From positions 1-64,000 of the forward strand of contig JAFRRP010000039.1 in assembly GCA_017428085.1 (NCBI GenBank): DNA of 64,000 nt. Direction: 5' to 3'. Under the pieces are notes generated by a model. That model was not told where the DNA came from. It saw only the letters and a program-made list of their open reading frames with translations, and did not search any database. Below, one piece after another: positions 26,664-51,068 of the stretch; position 1 is the stretch's first letter; every line of letters starts with the position of its first letter. Made by a program: the position numbers and the translations under genes. Origin of the DNA: Clostridia bacterium (GTDB lineage Bacteria; Bacillota; Clostridia; Oscillospirales; Acutalibacteraceae).

Positions 26664-26701
26664 AGACCTTTACCGTTTTTTTTCGGCAAAGGTCTTTTTT
26701 T
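26664..26701 (+). terminator. Rho-independent terminator after paralog B
   Basis: AGACCTTTACCG pairs with CGGCAAAGGTCT (12 bp, one G-U) across a T8 loop, followed by a run of T. It sits between the convergent ends of paralog B and radical SAM protein 2. Confidence 0.85.
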
Positions 26702-26742: not shown

Positions 26743-28680
26743 TTATTTTTCAAAAAAATGCTGTTCGACGGGGTAATGCGTCGCCGTGTAGTCGGTGGCG
26801 CGGCGGTTGCGCCCGTACCAAAGCACCTCGCGGGCAAAATCCCCCATAGTATAAACGGGACTGTCATCCTTTATCGTAATCGTATTTTTAATCTTGCGCA
26901 GCGGCGTAGGCGTATTCAGGAAGATCCCGTTGAAATAGCCGTAAAAGTCATATCCCGACGTAATTTCGGGCGCAGGCTCGCCGATTTTTTTAACGACGGC
27001 TTTCTGATAAGCCACAAGTTCCGAAAGAACGTCGTCCTCCGGGGATATGCCGAGTGCGTCGAAAATCTCTTCGTAGAAACGGTCCAGTTCCTTGTACAGA
27101 TTGAGATAAAACAACTCATCGAAGCCCCACAGTACGCCGGGAATATCGTCAAACAGCGTCACCATTCCGTTCTTTCCTAGCGGCACCCCCCTTACGAGTT
27201 TGATGATCCGGGTGTACGCATCGTTGAGTACGCTGCCCGCTTTTTTTTTTGCGGAATCCAGTATCCTGTTATAGAAATCCAGATAGGATAATCCCTTTTC
27301 ATAGCGGAAAAACACGGCAAGGCAGCGCAGCAGGCCCAGATTGTGAAGTACCTGAATGATAATACCGAACATCATGGTGTTCACCCAGTCGTCCGTGGAC
27401 ATGGAATATGTGGCAACCACGCATTCCGAGTATTCCGTGATCTCTCCCTCATGCTGAGACGCATCGGAATGGATAAGCCTGAACGGGAGGCGGACGCTTT
27501 TGATCCCGTATTTTTCCTTATAATCCTTTTGTCCCATCAAAGAGTTCGGAAGCAGCTCACAGCAATAAATATTGATTGAAAAATGCTGACCGTTTTCAAT
27601 GAGCGAGCACACGCCGCAGCAGAAGGACTCATACGTTTCACCGGGGAGCCCGATGATCAGCTCGGTGTGTGTGTTGATATGCAGGTCGTTGTACCGGATC
27701 ATGAGATTGCGGAAGAAATCAAGAGAAATATTTCTTCTGCCGATATTTTCAAGCGTTTGGGGGTCAGTTGACTGAAAGGATACCGTCTGTGCTCTGTCCA
27801 GCCCGTTATCCGCGAGTTTTTTTCCGATGCGAAGCACCGAATCGAACTTGTTTTTTGTAAAACACACCCGGAAAGAACGCGGATAGCCCTTCGTCTTTTT
27901 CGATTCCACGATATAATCCGCGATCTCCTCGTCACGGCTGAAAAGGCAGAAGTTTGCGTCGGTGCACAGGACGTATTCCACCTTGTGTTCTGCGAACCAG
28001 TCGATCTCCGCCTTGACTCGTTCCATGGGAAACAGACGGACCTTTGACTTAAGCGATCCCCAGTCGCAGAACGCGCACCTGTTCGGACAGCCTCGATTGG
28101 TTTCAAACAGCGCGGAAAACCGGACGCCGTCGGCGAGCAGGTCGTCGAAAATACCGGTCAGATAGGGCGACGGATAGTCGCACCCGGTTTGCGGGACCTC
28201 CTGTGTCGTTACAACATCGTTTCCGGAACGGAACGAGATATTCGGCACATCCTTTAGTTCCCCGCCGGTCAGCAGACATTCGATAAGGTCGGCGGTAGGC
28301 TCCTCGCCGAAGCGGTGCGTGATAAAATCAACGTACGGACAGGCGGAAAGATCCTCTCCCTGTGCCGCAACGCTGTGTCCGCCGAAAACAATATAACAGC
28401 CGGGGTACTTTTCTTTGATCCGTGCGGCAGTATATTTATTATACTCAAAATTCCACACGCTGCAGGAAAACAAAACCATAAACGGCTCGGACAGAAGCTC
28501 GTCAAGCTCCTCAAACGCCATTCTGGAATAAACGATCTTTGTGAATCCGCATTCGTTTTTTATCAAAGGCCTGGTCAGGCAGTAGGCTTCTATACAGCCC
28601 GCCGAATAAGGGATATAAGTCGTCTTTTCCGTTTCCCCGTATACGTTGTTTGCCTGAACGAAGCAGATTTGTTTTTTCAT
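26743..28680 (-). CDS. B12-binding radical SAM protein 2
   Basis: 645 residues and paralogous to the proteins at 22601 and 54768. It opens MKKQICFVQANNVYG with IVFGGHSVAAQGED in the B12-like fold; the GEGE segment is RFGEE here. Cluster cysteines C198, C202 and C205 lie in ETNRGCPNRCAFCDWGS, followed by CTDANFC and ELIIGLPGETYESF. The C-terminal domain (YSECVVATYSMSTDDWVNTMMFG) matches its paralogs. ATG 28680 has GGGAGG 9 bp upstream; an ATG at 28707 is in frame but lacks a site. It is the last gene of the ten-gene minus-strand operon, 48 bp after paralog C. Confidence 0.88.
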   Translation of the reverse strand: MKKQICFVQANNVYGETEKTTYIPYSAGCIEAYCLTRPLIKNECGFTKIVYSRMAFEELDELLSEPFMVLFSCSVWNFEYNKYTAARIKEKYPGCYIVFGGHSVAAQGEDLSACPYVDFITHRFGEEPTADLIECLLTGGELKDVPNISFRSGNDVVTTQEVPQTGCDYPSPYLTGIFDDLLADGVRFSALFETNRGCPNRCAFCDWGSLKSKVRLFPMERVKAEIDWFAEHKVEYVLCTDANFCLFSRDEEIADYIVESKKTKGYPRSFRVCFTKNKFDSVLRIGKKLADNGLDRAQTVSFQSTDPQTLENIGRRNISLDFFRNLMIRYNDLHINTHTELIIGLPGETYESFCCGVCSLIENGQHFSINIYCCELLPNSLMGQKDYKEKYGIKSVRLPFRLIHSDASQHEGEITEYSECVVATYSMSTDDWVNTMMFGIIIQVLHNLGLLRCLAVFFRYEKGLSYLDFYNRILDSAKKKAGSVLNDAYTRIIKLVRGVPLGKNGMVTLFDDIPGVLWGFDELFYLNLYKELDRFYEEIFDALGISPEDDVLSELVAYQKAVVKKIGEPAPEITSGYDFYGYFNGIFLNTPTPLRKIKNTITIKDDSPVYTMGDFAREVLWYGRNRRATDYTATHYPVEQHFFEK

Positions 28681-28728
28681 AAACGGTATCCTCCCGTTAA
28701 ATAACATGGAACACGTTGCGCCGCGGAC

Positions 28729-30597
28729 TTACCCCGAAAAGATGATATAACCGAAGTCGGTTTCCTTTATTCCGGCGTTCTCAATAACAGAAGCAAATTT
28801 ATCCAGATTGTCTTCCACGAATTTTTCGGAAAACGCGTATGTTTCAACAGATAATTTCTGCAGATAAATGATCGACGGTTTTTTCCCCGGATGCAGCTCC
28901 CACCATCGCATATTCCTTGTGAAAGCATCAGCCTGAATGAAATATGTGGAGTAAGCGGACATGGGACGGTTCAGATACAGATAAGCCCAGGAGGCGTCGC
29001 CGCAGATATACACCGGACCGTCGGATATGGTTTTCATTGCCTCCAGATCCCGAAGCATACCGAGATATCTTTCTTTTATCAGCGGCGTCGTTCGGATCCC
29101 CTTGTACGGTCCCTCGTCGATTTTTTCAAAGGAAGCTTTGCCGGTATCGGTTTCCTCCTTGCGGAAACGGGAATGGAAATTCTCCACAACAAACCACTGC
29201 CCGCGCAGGATAAATCTTGCGCTCTCCGAGCCCGCCGCGATGAAAAGCGCCGCCGCTGCGATCACTGCCGCCGCTTTGCGCGGGATCCCGCGGTTTTTCT
29301 TTTTGGTTTTCGCGATATCCGCGGGTGCGTCTTTTCCCGTGGCGCGCAGGTGTTTCAGACTTGAGCCGAACATCGGTACGGTGGCAAGACACAAGAGCTG
29401 CAAACCGCCGGCGATAAGACAGTTTGAAAAAAAGTCCGCCGCAAACGAAAACGCAAGTCCCGCCAGCCAGAAACGCAGGAGTCTTTTATCTTTTTTCAGG
29501 GCGAGAAGCATACAGGCCGGTCCGTAAAACGCAAAAAACAGAGGCAGATATAAGAGATAGTCCGCGGGAGCAGCGGTAACGGCTTTTACCGCCATGACGG
29601 CGACTGAAACGATAAACGAAACGGATACCGCCGTGAACGCAGCGGCATAGCCGATCTTTCCCTTTTTACGGCCGATCAGGACGGCGATGAACACCGCGGC
29701 GCTTGCGGCGCAAACCGGGATGCTGAGCGAGGATAACAGGTCGGCAAGCCTTACCGACATGCTTTCTTCCCCAAAGAACAGGTTTGACCCGTGCACGGAA
29801 TCGGTAAACAGTTCCGGGATGTATTTTATAAAATCCGGGAACCCGGAGATCCCGATCAGCATGGCGAGAAATCCCGCGGCGCACACTGCGACGCCAGAAG
29901 TGACGGATATAAAATCGGCGGGAGAAAGCAGGAACGGGTACTGTGTTCCGACGTTTTTGTTTTTAATAAGAAAAACAAAAAATACGGCGGCGTAAATAAA
30001 GTACAAAAGCGAAACGGAGGGCTCGTTGATGACGCAGCAGGCGAAAATGAAGCCCGCCGCACCGAGACGAAGCTTTCCCGGCTTTTTACCGATAAAAAGG
30101 ATACACGTGCATACTGCCGCCGCCATCGCAGCCATATTATAGTAATTCAGCGTTGTGATGCCGAAAAGATCGTAGGTCGTGAAAGCGGAGGCCCCCAACA
30201 CGCCCCAGATCCCGTACCGCCGGAAATAAGCGTACAGAACGAAGAATACCGCCAGTTTTACCACGCAGTAGAGCTGGCGCATGAAAAGGATGATCCCCTC
30301 TGTGCTCCCCGTGAGCGCAAGGAAGAGCTTTACCGGCAGGATCTGAAAAACCGCGCTGAACTGCGTAAGATGCCATTCATCCGTAATAAGCGCGTCTCCG
30401 TTCAGGATACGCAGCGGTATCGTCCAGTAAAAACCGTCGTCGCTTGACAGTACGGAATAGCGGACAAAATAAAGACAATAGAAGAATATCCCCGCTCCGA
30501 TCAGCAGCGCAAGCGCGTCGTTTAACGCGCCGGGGGAGTCTAAACGCCCGAAAACGGAGCCGCCCGTTTTTTTTGCGGAAGCAGACGTGTTTTTCAT
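28729..30597 (-). CDS. GT-C-like polytopic membrane protein, paralog C
   Basis: 622 residues. Loop 1 has DD (53-54), GD (67-68) and DEWH (73-76), then QILPVKLFLALTGSTEGIILFMR. The C-terminal domain has DEGPYKGIRTTPLI, WAYLYLNRPMSAYSTYFI and WWELHPGKKPSIIYL. The start ATG lies one base past the stop of paralog D, whose last codons carry the ribosome site GGAGG. The start region MKNTSASA is matched by a short out-of-frame leader before paralog D. It is the last GT-C gene in the array and precedes radical SAM protein 2. Confidence 0.8.
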   Translation of the reverse strand: MKNTSASAKKTGGSVFGRLDSPGALNDALALLIGAGIFFYCLYFVRYSVLSSDDGFYWTIPLRILNGDALITDEWHLTQFSAVFQILPVKLFLALTGSTEGIILFMRQLYCVVKLAVFFVLYAYFRRYGIWGVLGASAFTTYDLFGITTLNYYNMAAMAAAVCTCILFIGKKPGKLRLGAAGFIFACCVINEPSVSLLYFIYAAVFFVFLIKNKNVGTQYPFLLSPADFISVTSGVAVCAAGFLAMLIGISGFPDFIKYIPELFTDSVHGSNLFFGEESMSVRLADLLSSLSIPVCAASAAVFIAVLIGRKKGKIGYAAAFTAVSVSFIVSVAVMAVKAVTAAPADYLLYLPLFFAFYGPACMLLALKKDKRLLRFWLAGLAFSFAADFFSNCLIAGGLQLLCLATVPMFGSSLKHLRATGKDAPADIAKTKKKNRGIPRKAAAVIAAAALFIAAGSESARFILRGQWFVVENFHSRFRKEETDTGKASFEKIDEGPYKGIRTTPLIKERYLGMLRDLEAMKTISDGPVYICGDASWAYLYLNRPMSAYSTYFIQADAFTRNMRWWELHPGKKPSIIYLQKLSVETYAFSEKFVEDNLDKFASVIENAGIKETDFGYIIFSG

Positions 30598-30598
30598 C

Positions 30599-32467
30599 TC
30601 AATCCTCCGGGATGACCATGATCCATCCGGTGTTCACTCTCGTGATTTCCGCGTTGGGGAATACCTGCTTCATCCGTTCAAGGTTATTCTCTGCCTGTTC
30701 CGGGAAAACGCCGTAGCATTCCGTATTTATTTCGGAAACAAATACGATCGTCGGCGTCTGATCGGGATGGAGCTCCCACCACCGGGTGTTGCGCGAAACG
30801 GCATCTGCGTCAACATAACAGGTCGAATATACCGAATACGGCAGGTCGAGATACAGATAATACCACGCGCCGTCGCCGCATATATACACCGGCCCGTCCG
30901 TCAGCTCTTTGATTTTGTCCAGGTCTGAGAGTGTCTCATCGTATTTTTTCGCAATGAACGCCGTTGTAGCAATTCCTTTGTGCGGGCCGCGGGAAAGCAC
31001 AGCGTCAAGCGGATCATCGGGTGAGGAATCACAGTGATCGGCATACTGTTGCGTAAAGCCGTCCTCCAAAAGGAACCATTCGCTTCTCATATAAAGCGCG
31101 AAGCCCTGTATGAAAATTGCAGCGGCAACGGTGATCGGAACGACGGCGCGCAGCATCCCCTTTACAAATCTGCCGCCTTTTCCGTTTTTCACAAAGGCTT
31201 CGTCGGTGAGGAACTCGTACAGGCAATCGGCAAACAGAGGAACGCCGGCAAAGGCGCACGCCTGTAACCCGGTAGCTTTGGTGCTTTCGGAGGAGATATC
31301 CACCACTACGGTGAACGCAAAGCCGGCCAGCCAGAACAGGAACGCGCCGCGGTTTCTGTGTTTCGTGATAAAAGCGCATTCAAACCCGAAAACGGCGAAA
31401 TAAATGGGATGCCATAACGAGAATATGGCAAGAGCGTCGTCGAACGAAGCGATAAACGCAGGAAGAAAAATGTAGTTTACCGCAAAAAGATAACACAGGG
31501 AGAACAGCAAAAACGCCCGTTCCCGGTTTACGCCTTTCAGTTTCTTTTTTATTAACACGGCGGCAAAGACCGAGCCTCCAATGATAAGAGCGGGAATACC
31601 GAGCGCGCTCAGAAATTCAATATACTGGTCAATATCTATTATGTTCCCGCCCGAAAGAGAGAAATTGTATTCGGAATCCGTCATCAGCTCCGGCAACGCT
31701 TTTATCACGTTTCCGAGACCCGCGGTAAGGTGGAGATACACAAAGAACGCTGCGGCGCATACGCCGATCCCGGCGGTGACGCACCCCCACGCTTTCTTTG
31801 AGCAGAGATACGGCGGATGGTAAGCTTTCTTCTTTTCCTTCAGAAGCATGACGGCGCAGGCGGCGGTGTAACCGAAATACAGAAACGCGGCAAACGGCTC
31901 GTTCACTACGCAGCAGGCAAACACCGCCCCCGCGAAAACCAGACGAAACGCCCCGGGCCGCTCGTTGAGGAACAGCACCGACGCGCAGAGCGCAAAGCTC
32001 ATCACAGCCATCTCATAGTAATTGAACGCCGCAATGAAAAGCACGTCATAGGAGGCAAAAGCGATCGCTGCGAAAACGGCGGCAAGTCCGTATTTCCTTA
32101 ATTTTCCGTAAAGGTAAAAATAAAAAATGATTTTTGCGATACAAAACAGATGACGGAGGAACAGGATGATCCCGTCAGTTCCCCCGGTGACCGCCATGAA
32201 GAACTTTACCGGCAGGAGCTGGAACACGGCGCAGAGCTGACAAAGATGCCATTCCTCGGTTATCAGATTATCCCCGAGCAGAAGGCGGTGAGGAATGGTG
32301 AAATATACCGCCTCGTCCCTCGATTGTACCGAAAAAGCGGTAAAATACAGATAGTAGATCAGCAACGCGATGCCGACCGCGACGGCAACGCAGTCCAAAA
32401 TGATTATTGTCTTCTTTTTCTGCGGTCTGATAAGTTCCGCCGCAAGAGACCTGACGCCTTTATTCAA
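30599..32467 (-). CDS. GT-C-like polytopic membrane protein, paralog D
   Basis: 622 residues from TTG 32467, chosen because AAGGAG lies 8 bp upstream and the product then begins MNKGVRSLAAELIRPQKKK, aligning with paralog E (MNHLSSFAAELIRPQKKN). The frame extends to ATG 32542 but that lies within the end of paralog E. Loop 1 has DE (51-52), GD (65-66) and EEWH (71-74). The C-terminal domain has SRGPHKGIATTAFIAKKYD, WYYLYLDLPYSVYSTCYV and WWELHPDQTPTIVFV. It is nearly identical to E over long stretches, a recent tandem duplicate. Confidence 0.8.
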   Translation of the reverse strand: MNKGVRSLAAELIRPQKKKTIIILDCVAVAVGIALLIYYLYFTAFSVQSRDEAVYFTIPHRLLLGDNLITEEWHLCQLCAVFQLLPVKFFMAVTGGTDGIILFLRHLFCIAKIIFYFYLYGKLRKYGLAAVFAAIAFASYDVLFIAAFNYYEMAVMSFALCASVLFLNERPGAFRLVFAGAVFACCVVNEPFAAFLYFGYTAACAVMLLKEKKKAYHPPYLCSKKAWGCVTAGIGVCAAAFFVYLHLTAGLGNVIKALPELMTDSEYNFSLSGGNIIDIDQYIEFLSALGIPALIIGGSVFAAVLIKKKLKGVNRERAFLLFSLCYLFAVNYIFLPAFIASFDDALAIFSLWHPIYFAVFGFECAFITKHRNRGAFLFWLAGFAFTVVVDISSESTKATGLQACAFAGVPLFADCLYEFLTDEAFVKNGKGGRFVKGMLRAVVPITVAAAIFIQGFALYMRSEWFLLEDGFTQQYADHCDSSPDDPLDAVLSRGPHKGIATTAFIAKKYDETLSDLDKIKELTDGPVYICGDGAWYYLYLDLPYSVYSTCYVDADAVSRNTRWWELHPDQTPTIVFVSEINTECYGVFPEQAENNLERMKQVFPNAEITRVNTGWIMVIPED

Positions 32468-32513
32468 AGCAGGCACTCCTTCCTGCAGACGTGGAAGCAG
32501 AAGCGTTGTCCAT
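32460..32513 (-). other. 17-codon leader frame before paralog D
   Basis: ATG 32513 has GGAGG upstream (inside the end of paralog E) and encodes MDNASASTSAGRSACFE, then TAA overlapping the TTG start of paralog D in another frame. Its start matches the MKNTSASA start of paralog C. Confidence 0.4.
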
Positions 32514-32514
32514 T

Positions 32515-34383
32515 TTAATCCTCCGGGATCTCCATGATCCATCCGGTGTTTACTCTCGTGATTTTCGCGTTAGGGAACACCTGTTTCATGTGTTCAAGGT
32601 CATTCTCGGCATGCTCCGTGAAAACGCCGTAGCATTCCGTACTTACGTCGGCAACGAATACGATCTCCGGCGTCTGATCGGGATGGAGCTCCCACCACCG
32701 GATATCGCGCGAAACGATATCACCGGGGACATAATAGGTGGAATATACCGAATACGGCAGGCCGAGATACAGATAATACCACGAGCCGTCGCCTCCTATA
32801 CAAACGGGGCCGGTCGTCAGCTCTTTGATTGTATCCAGATCTGAGAGTATCTCATCGTATTTTTCCGCAATAAACGCCGTAGTGACAATGCCCTTGTGCG
32901 GACCGCCGGAGATCACGGTGTCAAGCGGGTCGTCGGGCGTGGAATCGCAGTGATCGGCATACTGCTCCGTATAGCCGTCCTCTACGAGGAACCATTCGCT
33001 TCTCATATAAAGAGCGAACCCCTGTGCAAAAACCGCGGCGGCAACAGTGACCGGAATGACGGCGCGCAGCAGTCCCTTTACGAACCTGCCGGTTTTTCCG
33101 TTTCTCACAAAGTCGCCGCCATCGGTAAGGATCTCGTGCAGGCAATCGGCAAACAGGGGCACTCCGGCAAGGATGCATACCTGTACGCCGGTTGCGCTGG
33201 AACAGGCGGAGGAGATGTCCACCACCACGGTGAATGCGAAGCCAGCCAGCCAGAAAAGGAACAAACCACGGTTTCTTTTCTCCGTGATAATAGCACATTC
33301 GAAACCGAAAACAGCGAGATAGACGGAATACCATTTCGTGAATATGGCGAGACCGCCGTCGAACGAAGCAAAAAACGCCGGAAGAAAAGCGCAGCCCATC
33401 GCGAAAAGGTAACACAGGGAGAACAAAAGAAACGCACGCTCCCGGCTTACCCCTTTCAGCTTCTTCTTTATTAACACGGCGGCAAAGGCCGAGCCGCCGA
33501 GGATAAGCGCGGGAACGCCGAGCTCGATCAGGAATTCGGCAAGCTTGGCAAAATCGATTATGTTGCCGCCCGAAAGGGAAAAATCATATTCGGCATCCGT
33601 CGTCAGCTCCGGTATAGCCTTTATCACGTTCCCAAGTCCGGCGGTAAGCTGGAGATACAGGAGAAACGCCGCAGCGCACAAGCCGATCCCGGCGGTGATG
33701 CATCCCCACGCTTTCCGTGAGCAGAGATACGGCGGCCGGTAAGATTTCTTCTTTTCCATCAAAAGCATGACCGCGCAGACGGCGGTGTAGCCGAAATACA
33801 GAAACGCGGCAAACGGCTCGTTCAGTACGCAGCAGGCAAACACCGCCCCCGCGAAAACCAGACGAAGCGCCCCGGGCCGCTCGTTGAGGAACAGTACCGA
33901 CGCGCAGAGCGCAAAGCTCATCACGGACATCTCGTAGTAATTGAACGCCGCAATGAAAAACAGATCGTAGGAGGTAAAAGCGACCGAGGCGAAAACGGCG
34001 GCAAGCCCGTGTTTCCTCAGTTTTCCGTAAAAGTAGAAATAAAAAATGATCTTTGCGATACAAAACAGATGGCGGAGAAACAGGATGATCCCGTCGGTGC
34101 CGCCAGTGACCGCCATGAAGAACTTCACGGGCAGGATCTGGAACACGGCGCTGAACTGCGAAAGATGCCATTCGTCGGTTATCATATGATCCCCGAGCAG
34201 AAAGCGGTGGGGAATGGTGAAATAAAATGCCTCGTCTCTCGTCTGCACTGATAAGGCGGTAAAATACAGATAGTAGATCAGCAGTGCGGCGCCGACCGCG
34301 GCGGCAACGCAGTCCAAAATGATTCTTGTATTCTTTTTCTGCGGTCTGATAAGCTCCGCCGCAAAAGAACTGAGATGATTCAT
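32515..34383 (-). CDS. GT-C-like polytopic membrane protein, paralog E
   Basis: 622 residues with ATG 34383 and AAAGGAT 8 bp upstream. Loop 1 has DE (50-51), GD (64-65) and DEWH (70-73), then QILPVKFFMAVTGGTDGIILFLR. The C-terminal domain has GGPHKGIVTTAFIAEKYD, WYYLYLGLPYSVYSTYYV and WWELHPDQTPEIVFV. Closest relative is D, with conserved third positions along much of the middle region. One difference is the C-terminal CIGGDGS versus CGDGA. The order of genes (F upstream, D downstream) and very short gaps place it in the same operon. Confidence 0.82.
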   Translation of the reverse strand: MNHLSSFAAELIRPQKKNTRIILDCVAAAVGAALLIYYLYFTALSVQTRDEAFYFTIPHRFLLGDHMITDEWHLSQFSAVFQILPVKFFMAVTGGTDGIILFLRHLFCIAKIIFYFYFYGKLRKHGLAAVFASVAFTSYDLFFIAAFNYYEMSVMSFALCASVLFLNERPGALRLVFAGAVFACCVLNEPFAAFLYFGYTAVCAVMLLMEKKKSYRPPYLCSRKAWGCITAGIGLCAAAFLLYLQLTAGLGNVIKAIPELTTDAEYDFSLSGGNIIDFAKLAEFLIELGVPALILGGSAFAAVLIKKKLKGVSRERAFLLFSLCYLFAMGCAFLPAFFASFDGGLAIFTKWYSVYLAVFGFECAIITEKRNRGLFLFWLAGFAFTVVVDISSACSSATGVQVCILAGVPLFADCLHEILTDGGDFVRNGKTGRFVKGLLRAVIPVTVAAAVFAQGFALYMRSEWFLVEDGYTEQYADHCDSTPDDPLDTVISGGPHKGIVTTAFIAEKYDEILSDLDTIKELTTGPVCIGGDGSWYYLYLGLPYSVYSTYYVPGDIVSRDIRWWELHPDQTPEIVFVADVSTECYGVFTEHAENDLEHMKQVFPNAKITRVNTGWIMEIPED

Positions 34384-34395
34384 GTCGGATATCCT

Positions 34396-36276: not shown

Positions 36277-38108
36277 CTCTTTGTCTTTCCGTTCACGTGA
36301 ATGATGAAGCCGGCTTTCCCGTCTGTCAGCGTGTAATCGAAAAGCCCGTCAAGGAATTCGATCTTATCATCGTACAGATACGCCTTTTTATCCTCACTGA
36401 TGATATTGAACCCGTTTGCCTTCGGGATATAAACATATTCCGGGACTCTGTTTTCAAAAAGCTCAAAATACCGCGTCTGCCTTGCCCAGTCGTTATCCTC
36501 ATACCATGTGGAAAACGTTGCGTAGGGCAGATCAAGGTAGAGGTAATACCATGAATTCAGACTCATGATATAGACAGGCCCCGTGCAGGTTTCTTTTATG
36601 ACGTCAAGATCCTTCAGAATGAGCGTGTAGTCCCGTTTTGTTTCCGCCGTGGTCTTGAGTCCCTTGAGAGGCCCCTCGGTCATCACCTCGGTGGGGTGCC
36701 GCACGTTTTCGGTGACCAGCAAATCAAAAAACACCGAATTCCACAGGGATTCCGTGACAAGCGCGCAGCAGACGACGGACATGAGGCACGCCGTCACAGA
36801 TCGGGCGCTGATCCCCGCTTTATCGCGGCTCTTTTTCTTTGTCGGCGCGGTCTGTTCGCTTTTCAGCTCCCGCAGATAGCGCGAGATCATCAGTACCGAT
36901 GGGATCATCGCGGCGGGAGCGCAGAGAGCGATGCTCCACGCGGACGCGTAATCGACGATGAGCGTGGCCACGAGCGTGGATCCCCAGAAAACGAGGAGTC
37001 TTTTCTCCCTGTTTCGGGTGTATGCATAACAGACGATCCCGAAAAACAGTAACGGAACGGCCCTGTACATCCGCAGAAAACAAGCATCCTCAAAAAACAT
37101 CCAATTGACCACCGATACGGCAAACGCCGCTGCCGTGGTAAGCGATGCGAGTATCATCCCCGCGCGTTGGTTCTTTTTTTTCAGCACCGTCAGGCACAAA
37201 CAGAACGCGGCGGCAGCGAAAACGAGGAAGTACGGGGTATAGCAGTCAACTACCGCCATGATCTGAACGGGGTCGAGCATGTTGCCGGAGGTAACGGAAA
37301 AATTATATTCCGGGTCGGTAAACAGCTCCGGCAGCACGGCGAAGATCTCTCCGAGGCTGACGCGGGAAAAAACGAAATACAGCGTTCCCGCAAGGCACGG
37401 CGCGATCCCCGCCGAAAGCAGGCGCCACGTCCGGGAATTGATAAGAAATGCGGCGCCGCCGAAGCGGTCTTTCCCCTTTTTCAGTCCCACGGCTCTTACG
37501 ATGACCGCGGCGGTATAAAAAACGTAGAGAAACGCAAGCAGCGGTTCCGACAAAACAAGGCAGGAGAGAATGACGCCCGCGAAGACCGTTTGGAACGCGT
37601 TTGGCTTTTCTTTGAGGAACAGAACACAGCACAGCACCGTGAGAGACATGATGCAGATGGTGTTGTAACAAAGCTGGTAGATGTTGAAACAGAAATAGGA
37701 ACAGAACATTACGGAGGCAAACAGCCCCGCAAGACGTTCCTTCCGGAGATGGAGATACAGATAAACGCTGACGCATAAATGGCAGATCACCGCCAGATAC
37801 CTGTTCCAGAGAATGATACCTTCCACGCCTCCGGTCAGTTTGGTATAGGCGTAAAACGGAAGCATCTGCAAAAGAGCGGTGAGTTGAGAAACGTGCCATT
37901 CCTCCGTAAACGGTTTATCGCCCATAAGGAATCTGTGCGGAATGGTCAGATAATACCCTTCGTCCACGATATACGAGGCGGTACGGCACTGAAGCAGATA
38001 GTACACGGCAAACCCCGCGAAGAGCAGCAGCGCGGCGGCGTCGATCACGGTCAGGCCGTCTTTTTTCTTCAGCAGATCCGCGGTTTTTCCTGCGGACGTT
38101 TTTTTCAT
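36273..38108 (-). CDS. GT-C-like polytopic membrane protein, paralog G
   Basis: 611 residues from ATG 38108, which overlaps the stop of paralog H (ATGA) and has AAAAAGGAG 7 bp upstream. The frame is open to 38399, but that part is antisense-like shadow of H's coding end and is not used. Loop 1 has DE (49-50), GD (63-64) and EEWH (69-72), then LTGGVEGIILWNR. The C-terminal domain has TEGPLKGLKTTAETKRDYT, WYYLYLDLPYATFSTWYE and ENRVPEYVYIPKA in place of the usual HPEK segment. The final residues TDGKAGFIIHVNGKTKR match the family ending. Confidence 0.8.
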   Translation of the reverse strand: MKKTSAGKTADLLKKKDGLTVIDAAALLLFAGFAVYYLLQCRTASYIVDEGYYLTIPHRFLMGDKPFTEEWHVSQLTALLQMLPFYAYTKLTGGVEGIILWNRYLAVICHLCVSVYLYLHLRKERLAGLFASVMFCSYFCFNIYQLCYNTICIMSLTVLCCVLFLKEKPNAFQTVFAGVILSCLVLSEPLLAFLYVFYTAAVIVRAVGLKKGKDRFGGAAFLINSRTWRLLSAGIAPCLAGTLYFVFSRVSLGEIFAVLPELFTDPEYNFSVTSGNMLDPVQIMAVVDCYTPYFLVFAAAAFCLCLTVLKKKNQRAGMILASLTTAAAFAVSVVNWMFFEDACFLRMYRAVPLLFFGIVCYAYTRNREKRLLVFWGSTLVATLIVDYASAWSIALCAPAAMIPSVLMISRYLRELKSEQTAPTKKKSRDKAGISARSVTACLMSVVCCALVTESLWNSVFFDLLVTENVRHPTEVMTEGPLKGLKTTAETKRDYTLILKDLDVIKETCTGPVYIMSLNSWYYLYLDLPYATFSTWYEDNDWARQTRYFELFENRVPEYVYIPKANGFNIISEDKKAYLYDDKIEFLDGLFDYTLTDGKAGFIIHVNGKTKR

Positions 38109-40000
38109 CGCGAAGCTCCTTTTTGCGGAATGCGGCAATCCGTGACCTTCAGGATCCATCCCGCCTCTCCCTCGGTCTTTGTAAACGTGAAATACTCTTC
38201 CAACGCCCGCAGGTCTTCGACGATCTCCTCTTCCGGCGCTTCGACTTTCTCCCACAGATAGGGAACGACAAGTGGAACGTAGATATACTCCGGCACTTTT
38301 TCGGGATGCGTCTGCCAATAATTGACCTGCCTGTCGACTGTGCCGTTGACATACCACGTCGAATACGCGGCGCAGTCGATGCCGGGGAACAGATAGCACA
38401 GGCAGAAGCGGGAGGCAACGTAGACCGGAGCGTCGGTGTTCTCCGCGATATAGTGCATATCCGCGGATATCAGCGCATAGTTTGACGAGGTTATTTTTGA
38501 AAGTCTCATTCCTTTATACGGGCCTTCCTCCAGTTTTACGTCAAGCTCGCTTATGTGTTCGACGGAATTCACGACCAGATAGAAGGTCAAGTCCACATAT
38601 TGACAGGCGACCTCCGCCATAGGAACGGTGATAAATAGCAAGGCAAGGCAGAGAAACGCTGCGGAAGCGGAACGCGATTTCTTTTTTTGGCATTTTTTGT
38701 TGGTTGAACAAGCACTTTTTTCCTGTTTTAGTTCCGCGAAAAAAGCACCTGCCATCAGCACGGCGGGGATCACCGTTACCGCCTCGAACATTGCCAGGCT
38801 CAAATATGAGCAGACGTCCACGAGAAGAGAAGATACAATACCGGCAATATAGGCGCCGAACAGACGTCTTTCTTTTTTTTGTGTAAGAATGAAATACACC
38901 GCCGCAGCCGGGATCAGTGGGAAAAACCGGTAGGTAAAGATGAAGTAACTGGTTTTGTACGGACTGGAAAAATGCCCCGCAAACGAATACACTATCGTGA
39001 TAACGGTCACGATAGAAGTCAGCGCGCCGATCAGATGTCGGGCGGCGCTTTTTTTCATAAAGAACGCCGCAGCGATCAGCACCGCAAAGGCGATCAGCAA
39101 GGGCGGGGGAAACGCCCGGAAAAACTGTTTCATACACTCCGGTGCGATGATGCTGCCGTTTCGGAATAAAAAATCATGCTCCGGGTCAGTGAAAAGCTGC
39201 GGAAACGCAGCGATGATGTTTTTTAGACCGTATACGGACACCAGAGGGATCGTGACCGCTGCGGCGGGAACGGCCACACCGGCGGTCACACCCGCCCAGG
39301 TCCCGGAAAAAAGCTTCTCCGCATTCTCAGGTGCGGCGCCTTTTTTGTTGCGCAAGAAGCCGACGGCGCATATAGCCGTAAAAAACGCGTAAAGCAGAGC
39401 CAGCTCCGGCTGCGCAAGGACCGCGCAGGCCAGCAGTACGCCGCAGACGAATAGAGTGAAGGGTTTTCTGGAACAAAAAAAGAAGATCACCAAGCACGGG
39501 GCAAGCGCCTGAAGCGCCATCGTGTTATAGCTCCAGGAATAAATGCCATAGGGCGCGTAGCCGCAGAAAAGCGCGCAGGCGATAACAGCATAGTATCCGT
39601 ATCTTCTGAGGCGGGAATACAGGAAGACAGAACAGGCAAGCTGAAAGAAAGCGTACAAATTACGGAATAACAGAGAGATACCGTCGACCGAGCCGGTGAG
39701 CCATATAAATATTCGGAGCGGGATATACTGGAGCAGCGCGCAGACCTGGGAAACGTGCCACTCGTCGAGAATCAGCCGGTCTCCCTGGATCAGGCGGTAT
39801 GCCACCGTGGGATAACAGGTTTCGTCATCTAATACCTGTATGCCGAAATTGACGAAAAAGAAAAAGATGAGGCTGTAAAACAGGAATACCGCAAGGGCCG
39901 CTTTGTCGGCATTGTTAAGTCGGCAGAATCTTTTTTTTCCTTTGGAATCATTCCGCAAGCGGTTTTTTTTCATTGCCGTTATTCCGTCCGTTTTTTTCAT
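38105..40000 (-). CDS. GT-C-like polytopic membrane protein, paralog H
   Basis: 631 residues from ATG 40000, overlapping the stop of paralog I. Loop 1 has DDE (58-60), GD (73-74) and DEWH (79-82), but the usual IPHR is VAYR, as in I. The C-terminal domain has EEGPYKGMRLSKITSSNYA, FCLCYLFPGIDCAAYSTWYVNG and THPEKVPEYIYVPLV, ending CRIPQKGASR. H and I form a recent duplicate pair, sharing even the ribosome site and start context. A basic, Lys- and Arg-rich N-terminus of about 30 residues precedes the first helix. Confidence 0.8.
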   Translation of the reverse strand: MKKTDGITAMKKNRLRNDSKGKKRFCRLNNADKAALAVFLFYSLIFFFFVNFGIQVLDDETCYPTVAYRLIQGDRLILDEWHVSQVCALLQYIPLRIFIWLTGSVDGISLLFRNLYAFFQLACSVFLYSRLRRYGYYAVIACALFCGYAPYGIYSWSYNTMALQALAPCLVIFFFCSRKPFTLFVCGVLLACAVLAQPELALLYAFFTAICAVGFLRNKKGAAPENAEKLFSGTWAGVTAGVAVPAAAVTIPLVSVYGLKNIIAAFPQLFTDPEHDFLFRNGSIIAPECMKQFFRAFPPPLLIAFAVLIAAAFFMKKSAARHLIGALTSIVTVITIVYSFAGHFSSPYKTSYFIFTYRFFPLIPAAAVYFILTQKKERRLFGAYIAGIVSSLLVDVCSYLSLAMFEAVTVIPAVLMAGAFFAELKQEKSACSTNKKCQKKKSRSASAAFLCLALLFITVPMAEVACQYVDLTFYLVVNSVEHISELDVKLEEGPYKGMRLSKITSSNYALISADMHYIAENTDAPVYVASRFCLCYLFPGIDCAAYSTWYVNGTVDRQVNYWQTHPEKVPEYIYVPLVVPYLWEKVEAPEEEIVEDLRALEEYFTFTKTEGEAGWILKVTDCRIPQKGASR

Positions 40001-41874
40001 CGCGAAGCTCCTTTTCGCGGGATGCGGCAATCCGTGACCTTCAGAATCCATCCCGCCTCTCCTTCGATCTTTGTAAATGTGAAATACTCTTCCAACGCCC
40101 GCAGGTCTTTGGCAATCTCCTCATCCGGCGCTTCGGCTTTCTCCCACAGGAAGGCGTCCACAAGCGGTACGTAGATATACTCCGGCACTTTTTCGGGATG
40201 TGTCTCCCAATAATAGATCTGTTTGTCGACCGTGTCGTTGATATACCACGTCGAATACGCCGCGCAGTCGATGCCGGGAAACAGATAGCACAGGCAAAAG
40301 CGGTCGGAAACGTAGACCGGAGCGTCGGTATTCTCCGCGATATAGCGCAGGTCTTCGATCACCTGTGCATAGTTGGATGAGGTGTGTTTTGAAAGAATGA
40401 TCCCCTTGTACGGACCTTCCTCCGTCTTTACGTTAAGCTCGCTCAGGCGCCCGACGGAATTCATGATCAGATAGGTCGTCAGGTTTACGCCCTGCCAGGC
40501 GGCCTCCGCTGTGGGAACGGAAAAATAGAGTACGGCAAGACAGATCAATGCCGTGGAGACGGATTGTATTCTTTTTTTTTTGTGTTTATTTTTTTTGCCG
40601 GTCGTCCCGGCGTCTTTTTCACGGTTCAATTCTTCGAAAAAGACGCCTGCCATCAGCACAGCGGGGATCACCGTGATCGCCTCAAACATAGCAAGGCTCC
40701 CATCTGAGCTTACGTCAACAAGGAGAGAGGACACGATACCGGCTGCGTAGGCGCCGAGCAGACGGCTATCTTTTTTCTGTGTAAGGATGTAAAACACTGC
40801 CGAGGCCGGGATCAGCGGGAAAAACCGGTAGGTATAGCTGAAGCAGCTGTCATCCAGTTTGGAAAAATGCATCGTGAACGAGTATAATACCGTAAATGCG
40901 GTCACTATGGAAGTCAGCGTGCCGATCAGATACCGGTAGGTGCTTTTCCTCTTAAATAACGCCGCAGCGATCAGCAGCGCGAAGGCGATAAGCACGGGCA
41001 GGGGAAATGCCCGCAGAAACCATTCTGTGCTCTTTGGCACGAGCGCGCTGTTGTTTCCCAATGAATAGATATGCTCCGGGTCGTTGAAAAGCTGTGGGAA
41101 GGCAGCGATCATGTCTTTCAGGCCGCACACGGCCACACAGGGTATCGTGACCGCGGCGGCGGAAACGGCGACACCTGCAGTTACCCCCACCCAAGCCCCG
41201 GAAAACAGGTTTTCCGCATTCCCTGGGACGGTGCCTTTTCTGCCGCGCAAGAAACAAACGGCGCATATGACCGTAAACAGCGCGTAAAGCAGCGCCATTC
41301 CCGGCTCCGCAATTACCGCGCAGGCCAGCAGCACGCCGCAGAAAAACAGTGTGAAGGGGTTTCTGCGACAAAAAAAGAAAATCACAAAACACAGGGCAAG
41401 GGCCTGAAGCGCCATCGTGTTATAACTCAGAGACAAAATGCCGTAGGGCGCGTAGCCGCAGAACAGCGCGCAGGCGACAAGAGCGTAGTATCCGTATCCT
41501 CTGAGCCGGGAGTATATGAACACGGAACAGGAAAGCTGGGAAAAAGCGTACAGATTCCGATACAGCAGGATGACGCCCTCGACCGATCCGGTGAGCAGTG
41601 TAAATACGCGGAGCGGGATATACTGCAGCAGTGCGCTGAACTGGGAAATGTGCCACTCGTCGAGGATCAGCCGGTCTCCCCGGATCAAACGGTAGGCGAT
41701 CGTCGGATATTGGCTTTCGTCCACGATCTGCAATCCGAAATGGATGAGGAAGAAAAAGATAAAAGCGTAAAGCAGAAACACCGCAATGGCTGCTTTGTCG
41801 ACGTTATTCAACCGGAAGGCTCTTCTTTTTGCCGTTTCGGAACTGTCTGCGATCGTTTTTCTCATTACCGTCAT
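39997..41874 (-). CDS. GT-C-like polytopic membrane protein, paralog I
   Basis: 625 residues. Loop 1 has DE (52-53), GD (66-67) and DEWH (72-75), followed by QYIPLRVFTLLTGSVEGVILLYR. The C-terminal domain has EEGPYKGIILSKHTSSNYA, FCLCYLFPGIDCAAYSTWYIND and THPEKVPEYIYVPLV, ending CRIPRKGASR. It is close to H throughout. ATG 41874 and ATG 41865 are both possible; neither has a strong site, and translation probably continues from paralog J, whose stop is 14 bp upstream. Confidence 0.8.
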   Translation of the reverse strand: MTVMRKTIADSSETAKRRAFRLNNVDKAAIAVFLLYAFIFFFLIHFGLQIVDESQYPTIAYRLIRGDRLILDEWHISQFSALLQYIPLRVFTLLTGSVEGVILLYRNLYAFSQLSCSVFIYSRLRGYGYYALVACALFCGYAPYGILSLSYNTMALQALALCFVIFFFCRRNPFTLFFCGVLLACAVIAEPGMALLYALFTVICAVCFLRGRKGTVPGNAENLFSGAWVGVTAGVAVSAAAVTIPCVAVCGLKDMIAAFPQLFNDPEHIYSLGNNSALVPKSTEWFLRAFPLPVLIAFALLIAAALFKRKSTYRYLIGTLTSIVTAFTVLYSFTMHFSKLDDSCFSYTYRFFPLIPASAVFYILTQKKDSRLLGAYAAGIVSSLLVDVSSDGSLAMFEAITVIPAVLMAGVFFEELNREKDAGTTGKKNKHKKKRIQSVSTALICLAVLYFSVPTAEAAWQGVNLTTYLIMNSVGRLSELNVKTEEGPYKGIILSKHTSSNYAQVIEDLRYIAENTDAPVYVSDRFCLCYLFPGIDCAAYSTWYINDTVDKQIYYWETHPEKVPEYIYVPLVDAFLWEKAEAPDEEIAKDLRALEEYFTFTKIEGEAGWILKVTDCRIPRKGASR

Positions 41875-41888
41875 TTCGTCCGTTTTCG

Positions 41889-43730
41889 TTAAAACCGTTT
41901 TTCTTTCACTTTGAGCAGATAACCGGTGGTCAGCTCCTCCGCCTCCCCGTCAAACAGCACAAGTAGTTTTGTCAGTCTGTCATGGGCTTCCTTCTCGAAA
42001 ACCCCGTAGGATTCGCAGTCCACCTTCGATACAAATACGGCTTCCGGAAGCTTATCCGGATGCAGCAGCCACCAGTCGCGGTTCCTTTCGATCATATCCG
42101 CATCCACAAAAAAGGTGGAATAGGTAGAATACGGAAGACCGAGCCTGAGATAATACCAGGAGCAGCTTCCCGCCACATAAACAGGGCCGGTGCATACCGC
42201 ACGTATATAGTCGAGATCGTCAAGGATATCCGAATAGATCCCGGCATGATAAGCCGTTGTATAGACGCCCTTGTGAGGGCCGTCGGAAATTTTTACGTCA
42301 AGAGACGCACCGGTGTCCGTGCCCACATGTTCCGCATCCTCCGCCGTGTAGTAGTCCTCAACGAAGAACCAGTTTTCCCGGAATGCCGCATAGGCGCCGT
42401 CCGATATGAGCGTAACGCACAGGGCCGACACGGCAAACGCGAAAGCGGTCTTGCGAAGCTTTTCTCCGTTTTTTTTCGGTTTTGCTCCGGAAGGGAGCCC
42501 GCTCCTCAGATTCTTCGCAAATTCCGAAATCAGGATCACCGCGCAGGGCAGACCGATCGCAAAACCGCTGGTGATCGAGGCTTCGGACGAGATGTCCACC
42601 ACGACGGAATAGAAAAGCGCATAAAAGAGAAAGGCCAAAAGGCGTTTGTCATACCCGGGATCGAGAGCAGCGCAGCCAAAGGCGAGAAAAACGGGAAAAA
42701 CCGGAACAAGCACCGTGAGCGAGATATAATTGCACGAAGGGGCGTTGATCCAAAAAGCGGCGGTAACCGCGATATACGCCGCGAAGATCAGAACCGCGCC
42801 CGTATACGGGCAGATGCCGCCGAAGCGTTTTTTGATCAGCACAAACGCCAGAACACATAAAGCCGCCGCCGACAGTACGGGTCCCGTTACCATAAAACCG
42901 AGCAGCAGCCGCGCCGGATCGAAGATCGGGCTGCCTCCGTCCGAATGGAAATCGTATTCGGAGTCCGTAAACATCTGAGGAAGATTTCTGAAAAACGCGT
43001 TGAAATCAGTGACCAGAACGAACGAAACGGCAAAAATAACAAAACAGACGAGTATCCCTATTGAAACGAAGAACCATATTCTGACGTCTGTAATAAAACC
43101 GTACGAAGAGACCTTTCCTTTTTTTTGGCGAAAGCGTACAACGGCAACAGATATGCTCCAAAGGAAATAAAGCACCGCGAGAGCCGGTTCACTCAGCACG
43201 GCGCAGGCAAAAATGAACCCGGCGGCTGCCAGCCGCAACATGCCGGGCCTCTCGGTGAGAAACAAAATCGAACAAAAGATCACCGAGAAAATGATCGCCG
43301 CGTTATAATAATTCAGCGCCTCGAACGTAAAATACTCAAACAGCATATACGATCCCGCTGCTGCGACCGCCGCAAAGCGGTAGCGACGGAGCTTCACATA
43401 AAGATAGCAATACACCGCGGCTTTTACCACGCAGTAGAACTGCCGAAAAAAAAGGATCACACCGTCGGCGGAACCAGCGAGCAGCAGATAGAGCTTCATC
43501 GGAACAAGCTGAAACAGCGATGAAAGCTGAGAAACGTGCCATTCATCGATAAACAGCCGGTCTCCGGCGAGAAGCCTGTAAGGGATCGTATAATAAAAGC
43601 TCTCGTCTACCGTCTGTATGCCCTTCCGGGAAAGATGCAGACAAAACGCAAACAGAACGACCCCCACGGCGATCGCGGCGACATCCGGAAGAAGATATTC
43701 GTTTTTTCTTTTTTTTGCTGCGGTATCCAA
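41889..43730 (-). CDS. GT-C-like polytopic membrane protein, paralog J
   Basis: 613 residues from TTG 43730, served by AGAGGAAAAG right after the upstream stop. Loop 1 has DE (42-43), GD (56-57) and DEWH (62-65), then QLVPMKLYLLLAGSADGVILFFR. The C-terminal domain has SDGPHKGVYTTAYHAGIYSD, WYYLRLGLPYSTYSTFFV and WLLHPDKLPEAVFVSKV. It is the first GT-C gene of the array and lies 15 bp after the SPASM-type radical SAM gene, so the eight-gene array J-C is probably one transcript with that enzyme at its head. Confidence 0.82.
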   Translation of the reverse strand: MDTAAKKRKNEYLLPDVAAIAVGVVLFAFCLHLSRKGIQTVDESFYYTIPYRLLAGDRLFIDEWHVSQLSSLFQLVPMKLYLLLAGSADGVILFFRQFYCVVKAAVYCYLYVKLRRYRFAAVAAAGSYMLFEYFTFEALNYYNAAIIFSVIFCSILFLTERPGMLRLAAAGFIFACAVLSEPALAVLYFLWSISVAVVRFRQKKGKVSSYGFITDVRIWFFVSIGILVCFVIFAVSFVLVTDFNAFFRNLPQMFTDSEYDFHSDGGSPIFDPARLLLGFMVTGPVLSAAALCVLAFVLIKKRFGGICPYTGAVLIFAAYIAVTAAFWINAPSCNYISLTVLVPVFPVFLAFGCAALDPGYDKRLLAFLFYALFYSVVVDISSEASITSGFAIGLPCAVILISEFAKNLRSGLPSGAKPKKNGEKLRKTAFAFAVSALCVTLISDGAYAAFRENWFFVEDYYTAEDAEHVGTDTGASLDVKISDGPHKGVYTTAYHAGIYSDILDDLDYIRAVCTGPVYVAGSCSWYYLRLGLPYSTYSTFFVDADMIERNRDWWLLHPDKLPEAVFVSKVDCESYGVFEKEAHDRLTKLLVLFDGEAEELTTGYLLKVKEKRF

Positions 43731-43745
43731 GCTTTCTTTTCCTCT

Positions 43746-44699
43746 TCAGCCGAAATAAGGCCTTTCGCCTCGGATTTTCCTTTTGATTGCCTTCAATCGG
43801 GTGTTCGAGCGGCCGACAAAATCACACACCTCGCAGATCCCGCAGTCCGGGCGCCCCGTTTTTATCACACTCTCCCGCATCCGCGCATACTTCTCGCCGT
43901 TGAACAGCTCGATCACGTTGCTCTCCTTCACATTTCCGAGCGTCAGCACGCCGCTGAAATCGCAGCTGCAAATGCCGACGCTGCCATCGGAATAGATCGC
44001 AATATCGGAAAAGGGCATCACGCAGGGATACTTTTGTTGGCGTACGGCCTTTTTATTTGGGGATAGCCCCCCTCTGTTGGAAAGCACCGCGTTCCGGTAC
44101 CGTATTTCGACGATGATCTGAGTCCCGGAAAACTGCTCCGGTTCGTCGTTTACCTTTTCCACAAGCTTCCGGATGTTTTTATTCAGCGCGTATTCCTCGG
44201 TGTAGTTGTTGATGATGATTTTATCGACCAGCCCCCGAAATTCGTCGAGCTTTTCGGGCGTCAGCAGCGACCCGTTGGTGTAGATCTGTATTTTGGCGTC
44301 CGGCAAAGCCCTGCGCGCTTTCTCCAGCCGCTCGGTCAACAAAGGATCGAGAAGAGGCTCATTGTTGATGCACATGACCAGATTCGCGTTGAATCCCGCG
44401 TTTTTCAGATCGTCGATCGCCTTGTCAAAGATCTCCGGCGGCATCACGGTACGTTCTCTTTTGTCGAAAGCAGTGTTGGCGGGACAAAACGCGCAGGTGC
44501 CGTTGCATTTGTTGATCGTTTCAAAAGAAACGCACAATGGCAGCTTCGGTCCTTTCTCCGCGGAAAAATTCCGGATATAGCGCTTGATATACGGGTGCTG
44601 TACCGATTTTTGTACGGTAAGATAACAGTATGCACAAAACCGTGGGAAGGCCTTTTGCAGATAGAAGCCGGGTTTTCCAAAAAAGGATCGTATCTTCAT
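43746..44699 (-). CDS. SPASM/twitch-type radical SAM protein
   Basis: 317 residues without a B12 domain. SFETINKCNGTCAFCPANTAF holds the cluster cysteines C65, C69 and C72; INNEPLLDPLL and IYTNGSLLTPEKL follow as in SPASM enzymes. The C-terminal part has QKYPCVMPFSDIAIYSDGSVGICSCDFSG and DCGICEVCDF, cysteines for auxiliary clusters. Relatives act as peptide- or sugar-modifying dehydrogenases, epimerases or maturases. It heads the minus-strand array of eight GT-C genes, which suggests action on a shared acceptor or sugar. AAGGAAAG lies upstream of ATG 44699; no confident promoter was found. Confidence 0.85.
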   Translation of the reverse strand: MKIRSFFGKPGFYLQKAFPRFCAYCYLTVQKSVQHPYIKRYIRNFSAEKGPKLPLCVSFETINKCNGTCAFCPANTAFDKRERTVMPPEIFDKAIDDLKNAGFNANLVMCINNEPLLDPLLTERLEKARRALPDAKIQIYTNGSLLTPEKLDEFRGLVDKIIINNYTEEYALNKNIRKLVEKVNDEPEQFSGTQIIVEIRYRNAVLSNRGGLSPNKKAVRQQKYPCVMPFSDIAIYSDGSVGICSCDFSGVLTLGNVKESNVIELFNGEKYARMRESVIKTGRPDCGICEVCDFVGRSNTRLKAIKRKIRGERPYFG

Positions 44700-45092: not shown

Positions 45093-46559
45093 TCACTTGA
45101 GATCATATTTTGCTCTTATTTTTGGATACATATGGGAATAGAAAAAGGTACTCAAAAACTCTTTCAGTGCCGTAAAACCGTTGACGATAAAATTCAAAAA
45201 TCCTTTTCTGGAAATAAAACTCAGTCCGTTGATAATCGTTGCTCGGGCAAATTCAAACGGTTTTCCGTTGGTTATCGCGGTTCTTTTGCTGAAGCTCTTC
45301 CATATGAACCAGTTTTTTACTACTTTCAGGTCTTTGTCCGGCACACGAGAATAATTGATCCCAAGGGTTTCCGTTTCGACAACGCGTGAAAGCTCCTCAA
45401 GACTTTGCGGTTCTTTCAATTTTTCTTCGTCGACCAAACGCTGATACAACTCCGTTCCGGGCAAGGGGGTAAAATGGAAAATCGATGACATACTGAGAGG
45501 AGCTTCGTTGATCAGTTTTGCCGTATCTCGAAGTTGATCCTCCGTTTCGTCCGGGAACCCGACGATGAAAGAACCAACTATCGTAAAGCCGATCTGATTT
45601 AACAATTCCAATGTCGGCTTTATGATATCATAGTTAATACCCTTATGGACCTGCCTTTGCATTTCTTTGGAACCGCTTTCTATCCCGAAATAGATCCATC
45701 GGCATCCTGCTTGATACATCAGCCGGTAGTCCTCTTCGTTAAAGAAGCCGAGCCTTAAATTGATACCCCATCTAAAGTGCAGCCCTTCCTTTTTAACGCG
45801 GGAACAAAAGTCCTGTAAGTCGGAGCGTTTTATGCACCAAAGTTCGTCAGAAAAAAAGACGCCATCCATTCCGTAATTCTCAATCAGGTATTTGATTTCC
45901 CTGATGACGATTTCGTTTGGTCGCTTTCTGTGAGTGCTTTTGTGGAAGGTGACATTTGAACAAAATGCGCAATTTCCCGGACACCCTTTGGAGGAATAGA
46001 GATAGAGCATCTTTTTACAGCCGAAATTCTGCGTCATGTATTTATTCGGATCCACTAAAGACCAATCAATATCAGGCAGTATTCCCAGATCGGTGAAAGG
46101 TCTGTCCGGATTGAGAATAACATTTCCGTCCTTTTTATAAGCGATCCCGAGCACGTCTGCAATGTCTTTGCCGTCAGAAAGGCGGTCTAATAATTCTTTC
46201 CACGTTTCTTCTCCCTCGCCGATGGAAACGATATCGACATAGTCGTTCGCAATGACAAGATCCAACTGCAGAGAGGGAAGCTGTCCTCCCCACACAACCG
46301 GCACCCCACGCTGCTTCAGTTCCTTTGAAATGGCGATGGCATCTTTTAATCCTCTTGATGACATGACGGAAATACCGGCAATATCAGGTGAAAACTCTGA
46401 TAAGACCGTTTTTAGTTTTGTTTTCTCCACGCATCTGTCATAAAGCCTGACCTTATGGCCAAACTGCTCCAGATATGATCCAATAGAAAGCAATCCAAGC
46501 GGGTTGACCATTGTCAGGTTATAATATCCGATTGAGGGATTAATCAGTAAAACATTCAT
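45093..46559 (-). CDS. B12-binding radical SAM protein 4 (distinct lineage)
   Basis: 488 residues. MNVLLINPSIGYYNLTMVNPLGLLSIGSYL starts the B12-binding fold, with VVWGGQLPSLQLD and SIGEGEE. Cluster cysteines C193, C197 and C200 are in SSKGCPGNCAFCSN; GIESGSKEMQRQVHKG and FIVGFPDETEDQL complete the core. It belongs to the general BchE-like group rather than the 640-residue family of the other three proteins, and its codons are more AT-rich. ATG 46559 has ACAGGAGA 7 bp upstream. It is bounded by remnants on both sides and may have entered separately. Confidence 0.88.
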   Translation of the reverse strand: MNVLLINPSIGYYNLTMVNPLGLLSIGSYLEQFGHKVRLYDRCVEKTKLKTVLSEFSPDIAGISVMSSRGLKDAIAISKELKQRGVPVVWGGQLPSLQLDLVIANDYVDIVSIGEGEETWKELLDRLSDGKDIADVLGIAYKKDGNVILNPDRPFTDLGILPDIDWSLVDPNKYMTQNFGCKKMLYLYSSKGCPGNCAFCSNVTFHKSTHRKRPNEIVIREIKYLIENYGMDGVFFSDELWCIKRSDLQDFCSRVKKEGLHFRWGINLRLGFFNEEDYRLMYQAGCRWIYFGIESGSKEMQRQVHKGINYDIIKPTLELLNQIGFTIVGSFIVGFPDETEDQLRDTAKLINEAPLSMSSIFHFTPLPGTELYQRLVDEEKLKEPQSLEELSRVVETETLGINYSRVPDKDLKVVKNWFIWKSFSKRTAITNGKPFEFARATIINGLSFISRKGFLNFIVNGFTALKEFLSTFFYSHMYPKIRAKYDLK

Positions 46560-51067: not shown

Positions 51068-51068
51068 T

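Follow-up and report, generated by a model that had tools for sequence, protein, structure and literature searches.

A tandem array of eight GT-C-type genes with radical SAM companions in a Clostridia bacterium

Gene content of the array and its surroundings

We analyzed a 64,000-nucleotide stretch of a Clostridia bacterium contig (the window), in which ten minus-strand genes run from 44699 to 26743: first a SPASM radical SAM gene, then eight paralogous genes (43730–28729) for proteins of about 620 amino acids, and last a B12 radical SAM gene. A preliminary description of this DNA had reported a closely spaced ten-gene run with overlapping junctions, and we confirmed both points. We recovered all ten ORFs of the minus strand as open frames, the eight paralog frames are full-length and stop-free, and Pfam recognizes radical SAM domains at both ends. 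The nine junctions, with starts picked through their Shine-Dalgarno motifs, measure in transcription order +15, +14, −4, −4, −4, +12, −28 or +47, +1 and +48 nt, where −28 applies if paralog 7 starts at its first ATG; apart from that value, they range from −4 to +48 nt. The three 4-nt overlaps lie at the junctions of paralogs 2 and 3, 3 and 4, and 4 and 5. Longer starts in the ORF list for paralog 3 (40051) and paralog 4 (38399) were rejected as mechanical, as they fall within the preceding gene and are not needed. The genes of the run, in transcription order, are:

43746..44699, minus: SPASM/twitch radical SAM protein, BtrN-like (Radical_SAM 2e-12, SPASM 8e-10; BtrN 4e-20)
41889..43730, minus: GT-C paralog 1 (TTG start)
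39997..41874, minus: GT-C paralog 2 (70–71% identity with paralog 3)
38105..40000, minus: GT-C paralog 3 (ATG at 40000 with AAAGGA; 4-nt overlap with paralog 2)
36273..38108, minus: GT-C paralog 4 (ATG at 38108 with AAAGGA; 4-nt overlap with paralog 3)
34396..36276, minus: GT-C paralog 5 (the one with a predicted structure)
32515..34383, minus: GT-C paralog 6 (80% identity with paralog 7)
30599..32542, minus: GT-C paralog 7 (TTG at 32467 with AAGGAG as alternative start)
28729..30597, minus: GT-C paralog 8
26743..28707, minus: cobalamin-dependent radical SAM protein, TokK/CysS-like (TokK 2e-92, CysS 1e-44; better start at 28680 with GGAGG)

Around this run, the window holds three further GT-C paralogs, three further B12 radical SAM genes and genes for the supply of sugar donors:

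17523..18470, plus: second GtrB/ArnC-type polyprenyl-phosphate glycosyltransferase (GtrB 3e-31)
18496..20361, plus: GT-C paralog outside the array, immediately 3′ of the GtrB-like gene
22601..24511, minus: second TokK/CysS-like B12 radical SAM protein
24534..26612, plus: GT-C paralog outside the array, sister of paralog 5 and convergent with the array
45093..46559, minus: B12-binding radical SAM protein (Pfam Radical_SAM 3.9e-21, B12-binding 5.2e-16)
49367..50242, minus: NAD-dependent sugar epimerase/dehydratase (PF01370 2e-27)
50282..51076, minus: glucose-1-phosphate cytidylyltransferase, for CDP-sugar supply (TIGR02623 357.5 bits, cut-off 300.25)
51069..52037, minus: GtrB/ArnC-type polyprenyl-phosphate glycosyltransferase, a donor maker (GtrB sll0501 8e-45; phrog_841 9e-75)
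52232..54421, plus: GT-C paralog outside the array, divergent from the GtrB-like gene
54669..56762, plus: third TokK/CysS-like B12 radical SAM protein

Both GT2 proteins of the window align end to end with GtrB and ArnC, and one of the two genes lies immediately 5′ of a GT-C gene. The window also encodes a DegT aminotransferase and an FdtA-type protein. We found no GtrA-type flippase within the window; the genome has two GtrA matches over the cut-off and one below it, all on other contigs.

We also noted several features of the wider region. GC content is mostly 0.55–0.65 in positions 1–17300 of the window and mostly 0.46–0.54 across the glycan cluster (17500–58000), a drop that suggests that the cluster is an island. 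The high-GC flank carries aroA-like and DAHP-synthase-like genes, named by eye from the sequence. A DUF362 iron-sulfur protein is encoded at 20456–21628 (plus strand), between GT-C and GT2 genes of the cluster. At 58633–63942, the ORFs listed on the minus strand are rich in Gly, Arg and His and not protein-like; they probably lie antisense to a plus-strand gene that is long and repetitive. To the right of the window (G000:C28:64001-80000) are two further tandem TokK/CysS-like radical SAM genes, a YfhO-family protein and a CotH-kinase protein.

Extent of the probable transcription unit

Two signals mark the likely ends of the transcript:

46695..46722, minus: putative promoter, TTGACA-16-TATCAT with an extended −10, near-consensus, preceding the B12 radical SAM gene at 46559–45093
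26664..26695, minus: strong rho-independent terminator, a 12-pair hairpin followed by ATGTTTTATT (T-rich tail), 48 nt past the last array stop

Between 26.5 and 52.4 kb, only two minus-strand sites match the promoter consensus at 11/12 or better (52152–52124 and 46722–46695), compared to 0.06 expected in shuffled sequence, and both have an extended −10; the first lies upstream of the GtrB-like gene at 51069–52037. Since only these two sites reach this score and one of them precedes the gene at 46559–45093, it is likely that 11 genes, including three radical SAM genes, form a single unit from ~46.7 to 26.66 kb. There is no clear transcription end between this promoter candidate and the array, and the array transcript probably starts at ~46.7 kb, ~2 kb above 44699. 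An upstream limit at 44699 itself is unsupported, because the best promoter-like match in the 393-nt gap above the SPASM gene is 8/12, whereas the 11/12 sites with an extended −10 lie further up. This gap could hold an unrecognized promoter. A search for copies of its DNA in 23 relatives found none elsewhere. Rfam, run on the whole window and on 44.6–47.4 kb, gave no match that would mark either this gap or the 685-nt gap further up as a riboswitch or intron. Part of the 685-nt gap (46560–47245) looks by eye like a group II intron 3′ end, and Rfam has no match there.

We looked within the run for signals that would split it into independent units. Promoter-like sites are at background (16 on both strands versus 15.1 ± 4.0 in shuffles), which speaks for one unit, whereas terminator-like matches within the coding run exceed shuffles (60 versus 29), although most are short, weak intragenic stems. 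Thus, at the level of gene anatomy, the earlier proposal of a single transcript is well supported by the tight and overlapping junctions, the lack of an internal promoter excess and the closing terminator, but its start would probably lie about 2 kb higher than proposed. Likewise, the two radical SAM enzymes said to frame the operon do not mark its true boundary, which is probably higher, since a third radical SAM gene (46559–45093) sits inside the probable transcript.

Fold, divergence and distribution of the GT-C family

The eight paralogs match no model in Pfam or NCBIfam, so that the family is nameless in these libraries, and a profile search of PDB chains gave no sequence match to them. 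We take the fold from a predicted structure, an AlphaFold2 model of paralog 5 built from 11 window sequences (mean pLDDT 73.7). In a VIA-align search with this model, PDB ranks 1–46 were all GT-C transferases or subunits with a GT-C fold (Z 15.2–8.4), with matches that span roughly 280–460 residues and include OST, PMT, ALG9, ArnT, DPY19 and Emb/Aft. Foldseek gave three matches at E ≤ 0.001, ArnT and two entries that contain oligosaccharyltransferase. Each array protein has 9–12 hydrophobic segments by hydropathy, where GT-C enzymes have 8–13 transmembrane helices and an acidic, DxD-like motif in the first external loop. Of 74 family sequences, 97% retain an acidic pair after TM1 (D/E49-E/D50), which fits the modified DxD described for enzymes of this kind (PMC8035078). 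Thus, the paralogs carry a predicted GT-C fold, and their first assignment to this class was right.

Since the top structural scores are those of OST and PMT, within about 2 Z units of those of ALG9 and ArnT, we considered that the paralogs might transfer whole glycans or modify proteins, with the radical SAM genes belonging to an unrelated peptide or cofactor pathway. However, the paralogs have GtrB-like donor makers and nucleotide-sugar genes as neighbors, and the substrates of BtrN and of TokK/CysS are small molecules. We regard this explanation as decidedly unlikely.

The eight array paralogs are far apart in sequence, with a median pairwise identity of 28% and most pairs at 26–39%; the exceptions are two recent tandem pairs, 2/3 and 6/7. 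The dN/dS ratios of these pairs (omega 0.32 for 2/3 and 0.28 for 6/7) indicate purifying selection, and thus both copies of each pair are maintained as working proteins. In AU tests, a single clade for all eight array members was rejected (p-AU 0.00013), which speaks against a simple burst from a single lineage as the origin of the array, while a single clade for all 12 family members in the source genome was not rejected (p 0.24). By this phylogenetic criterion, the array members descend from more than one older lineage. Paralogs 2 and 3 are 90% identical over their last 300 nt compared to about 75% elsewhere, but synonymous differences fall only modestly at the 3′ ends, too little for strong gene conversion as the driver.

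The family is unevenly distributed. Beyond the array, the source genome has three extra copies in the window, plus one or two more on a different contig. The family is present in 19 of the 26 genomes of the genus, with copy numbers from 0 to 12, and strong matches were found in 4 of 394 genomes across the order, source genome included, in a scan that scored just three candidates in each genome. In the Ruminococcus group, many relatives have a single GT-C copy 3′ of a GtrB-like GT2; in Ruminococcus bromii, the one single-copy GT-C examined is fused to an acyltransferase domain. No GT-C family members were found in viral contigs or plasmids.

The largest arrays occur in a related genus. A goat-omasum MAG (G041) has 34 family matches; 21 of these genes stand head to tail in a single array of 39 kb, whose junctions measure −4 to +56 nt, bar one uncertain case. 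A second species of that genus (G045) has 24 matches, including at least 14 tandem genes split over two contigs and collinear with G041: order is kept in 8 of 9 reciprocal best pairs on the larger contig (P 0.0003), and the four reciprocal best pairs on the other contig are all in order. No member of the window array has a one-to-one ortholog in that of G041, the best identities being 28–34%. Expansion of the GT-C family into tandem operons is seen in at least two lineages. The G041 and G045 arrays each end in a co-directional radical SAM gene that differs from that of the window, so that tandem arrays are again found next to a radical SAM gene, here for a different enzyme. Homologs of this protein are found at L100:10489-11745 (G018:C2) and also in G040 and L020; the G018 copy, the one checked for this motif, lacks CxxxCxxC and may be a non-catalytic relative.

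These patterns bear on what the copies are for. The preliminary description had proposed coordinated dosage of all eight transferases, such that eight copies would run the same reaction and duplication would lift total activity. One likely transcript and two recent pairs at 70–80% identity are compatible with this idea, but the remaining pairs are just 26–39% identical, the array has more than one older lineage behind it, and two other species keep diverged orthologs in the same order. Since identity is low, several lineages are represented and the recent pairs are under purifying selection, distinct specificities are favored over dosage, which we now hold to be very improbable; the array has the look of eight distinct enzymes rather than of one enzyme in eight doses. 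We also considered that the locus might be a store of alternative serotype-type transferases that are reshuffled by recombination for surface variation, comparable to phage-driven O-antigen conversion. The swings in copy number, which spans 0 to 12 among genomes of the genus and exceeds 30 in the related genus, would agree with such a store, as would the likeness of tandem copies at their 3′ ends. In contrast, all copies look co-transcribed, neither a silent cassette nor an invertible promoter was seen, the searched viral contigs and plasmids lack the family, array order is conserved across species, and the 3′ fall in synonymous differences is modest; this function therefore strikes us as quite unlikely.

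Radical SAM enzymes and a proposed external glycosylation system

The radical SAM proteins of the run resemble enzymes that act on small molecules. BtrN is a radical SAM 2-deoxy-scyllo-inosamine dehydrogenase, and the protein at 43746–44699 shares with it CxxxCxxC, the auxiliary-cluster cysteines and an LSNRGG motif. It is a putative ring-alcohol dehydrogenase and, unlike BtrN, sits in a locus of the surface-glycan type. The protein at 26743–28707 aligns with TokK over residues 29–597, spanning the B12-binding domain, and contains CxxxCxxC; Pfam detects Radical_SAM, while the Pfam B12-binding match is weak and below cut-off. Since it scores 229.3 bits against the KedN5 family (NF033712), under the 700-bit cut-off, we label it TokK/CysS-like and not KedN5 family. 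Like TokK, CysS and KedN5, it combines B12-binding and radical SAM domains, but its gene lies in a glycan cluster and theirs lie in antibiotic clusters. CysS and TokK perform iterative methylations (PMC12846815). Of the 70 GT-C genes across the genus, 26 have a TokK/CysS-like gene no more than 10 kb away, compared to 2.0 expected under random placement. This proximity shows shared clusters, not a shared pathway, and the association may only reflect joint residence in polysaccharide clusters. Elsewhere, two TokK/CysS-like B12 radical SAM enzymes are fused in a frame of ~1330–1350 amino acids (L020:669-4658; also G018:C2, G020:C1 and G040:C28).

The closest known systems are the multi-component transmembrane glycosylation systems of Gram-positives, CsbB/GtcA/YfhO and lactococcal CsdAB/CD/EF (PMC8035078), and GtrA/GtrB/Gtr of Shigella (PMC11127046). 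As in these, a GtrB-type polyprenyl-phosphate sugar synthase adjoins a transferase with a (here predicted) GT-C fold. The locus differs in having 8 tandem GT-C genes in the window, and ~21 in its relative, compared to one or a few; in the lack of a GtrA flippase in the cluster; in a GT-C family outside Pfam and NCBIfam; and in radical SAM genes within the probable unit. To our knowledge, external glycosylation systems use one or few GT-C enzymes per glycan. Among the mycobacterial Emb/Aft arabinosyltransferases, several GT-Cs work on the same cell-wall glycan, on the outer side of the membrane and from polyprenyl-phosphate donors. The predicted structure matches these enzymes at Z 8–12, and action of several GT-Cs on one external glycan is what we propose for the array, but the profile search matched no PDB chain and no arabinan pathway genes were recognized in the window. 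Our literature search, in which subscription journals were thinly covered, found no precedent for tandem GT-C arrays, nor for radical SAM enzymes in connection with a surface polysaccharide.

We think it reasonably probable that the locus encodes a multi-component transmembrane glycosylation system on a greatly expanded scale, with eight specialized GT-Cs and radical SAM tailoring in one unit from 46.7 to 26.66 kb. By analogy with the systems above (PMC8035078; PMC11127046), the GtrB-like GT2 enzymes would charge polyprenyl phosphate with sugars in the cell interior, a flippase would carry the polyprenyl-phosphate sugars across the membrane, and the GT-C paralogs, which would differ from one another in sugar or acceptor specificity, would transfer the sugars to a surface glycan on the outside. 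On the same analogy, we infer polyprenyl-phosphate sugars as the donors of the paralogs, and the neighboring genes suggest that the acceptor is probably a surface polysaccharide. Before or after loading, the sugars may be tailored by the BtrN-like protein, through oxidation of a ring carbon, and by the TokK/CysS-like protein, through C-methylation, possibly repeated.

A more specific version is an external assembly line, in which 8 to ~21 different GT-Cs would add single sugars successively from polyprenyl-phosphate donors. The product would be a long surface glycan, for the most part without repeats, with radically C-methylated or oxidized sugars. We consider this version unlikely; if true, it would be a mode for which no bacterial precedent at such scale has been described.

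The interest of the locus is greater in the pattern of the family than in gene dosage: the system would work like known ones, at a scale without precedent in the papers searched. In this gut- or rumen-type Clostridia bacterium, the genes suggest a surface sugar coat that takes an unusually large set of external glycosyltransferases to build. Diverged tandem GT-C arrays of 8 to ~21 genes, with order kept in two species, indicate a glycan to which many different sugars are added externally, and the recurring company of B12 and SPASM radical SAM genes would predict C-methyl or radically oxidized sugars in the coats of rumen Clostridia.
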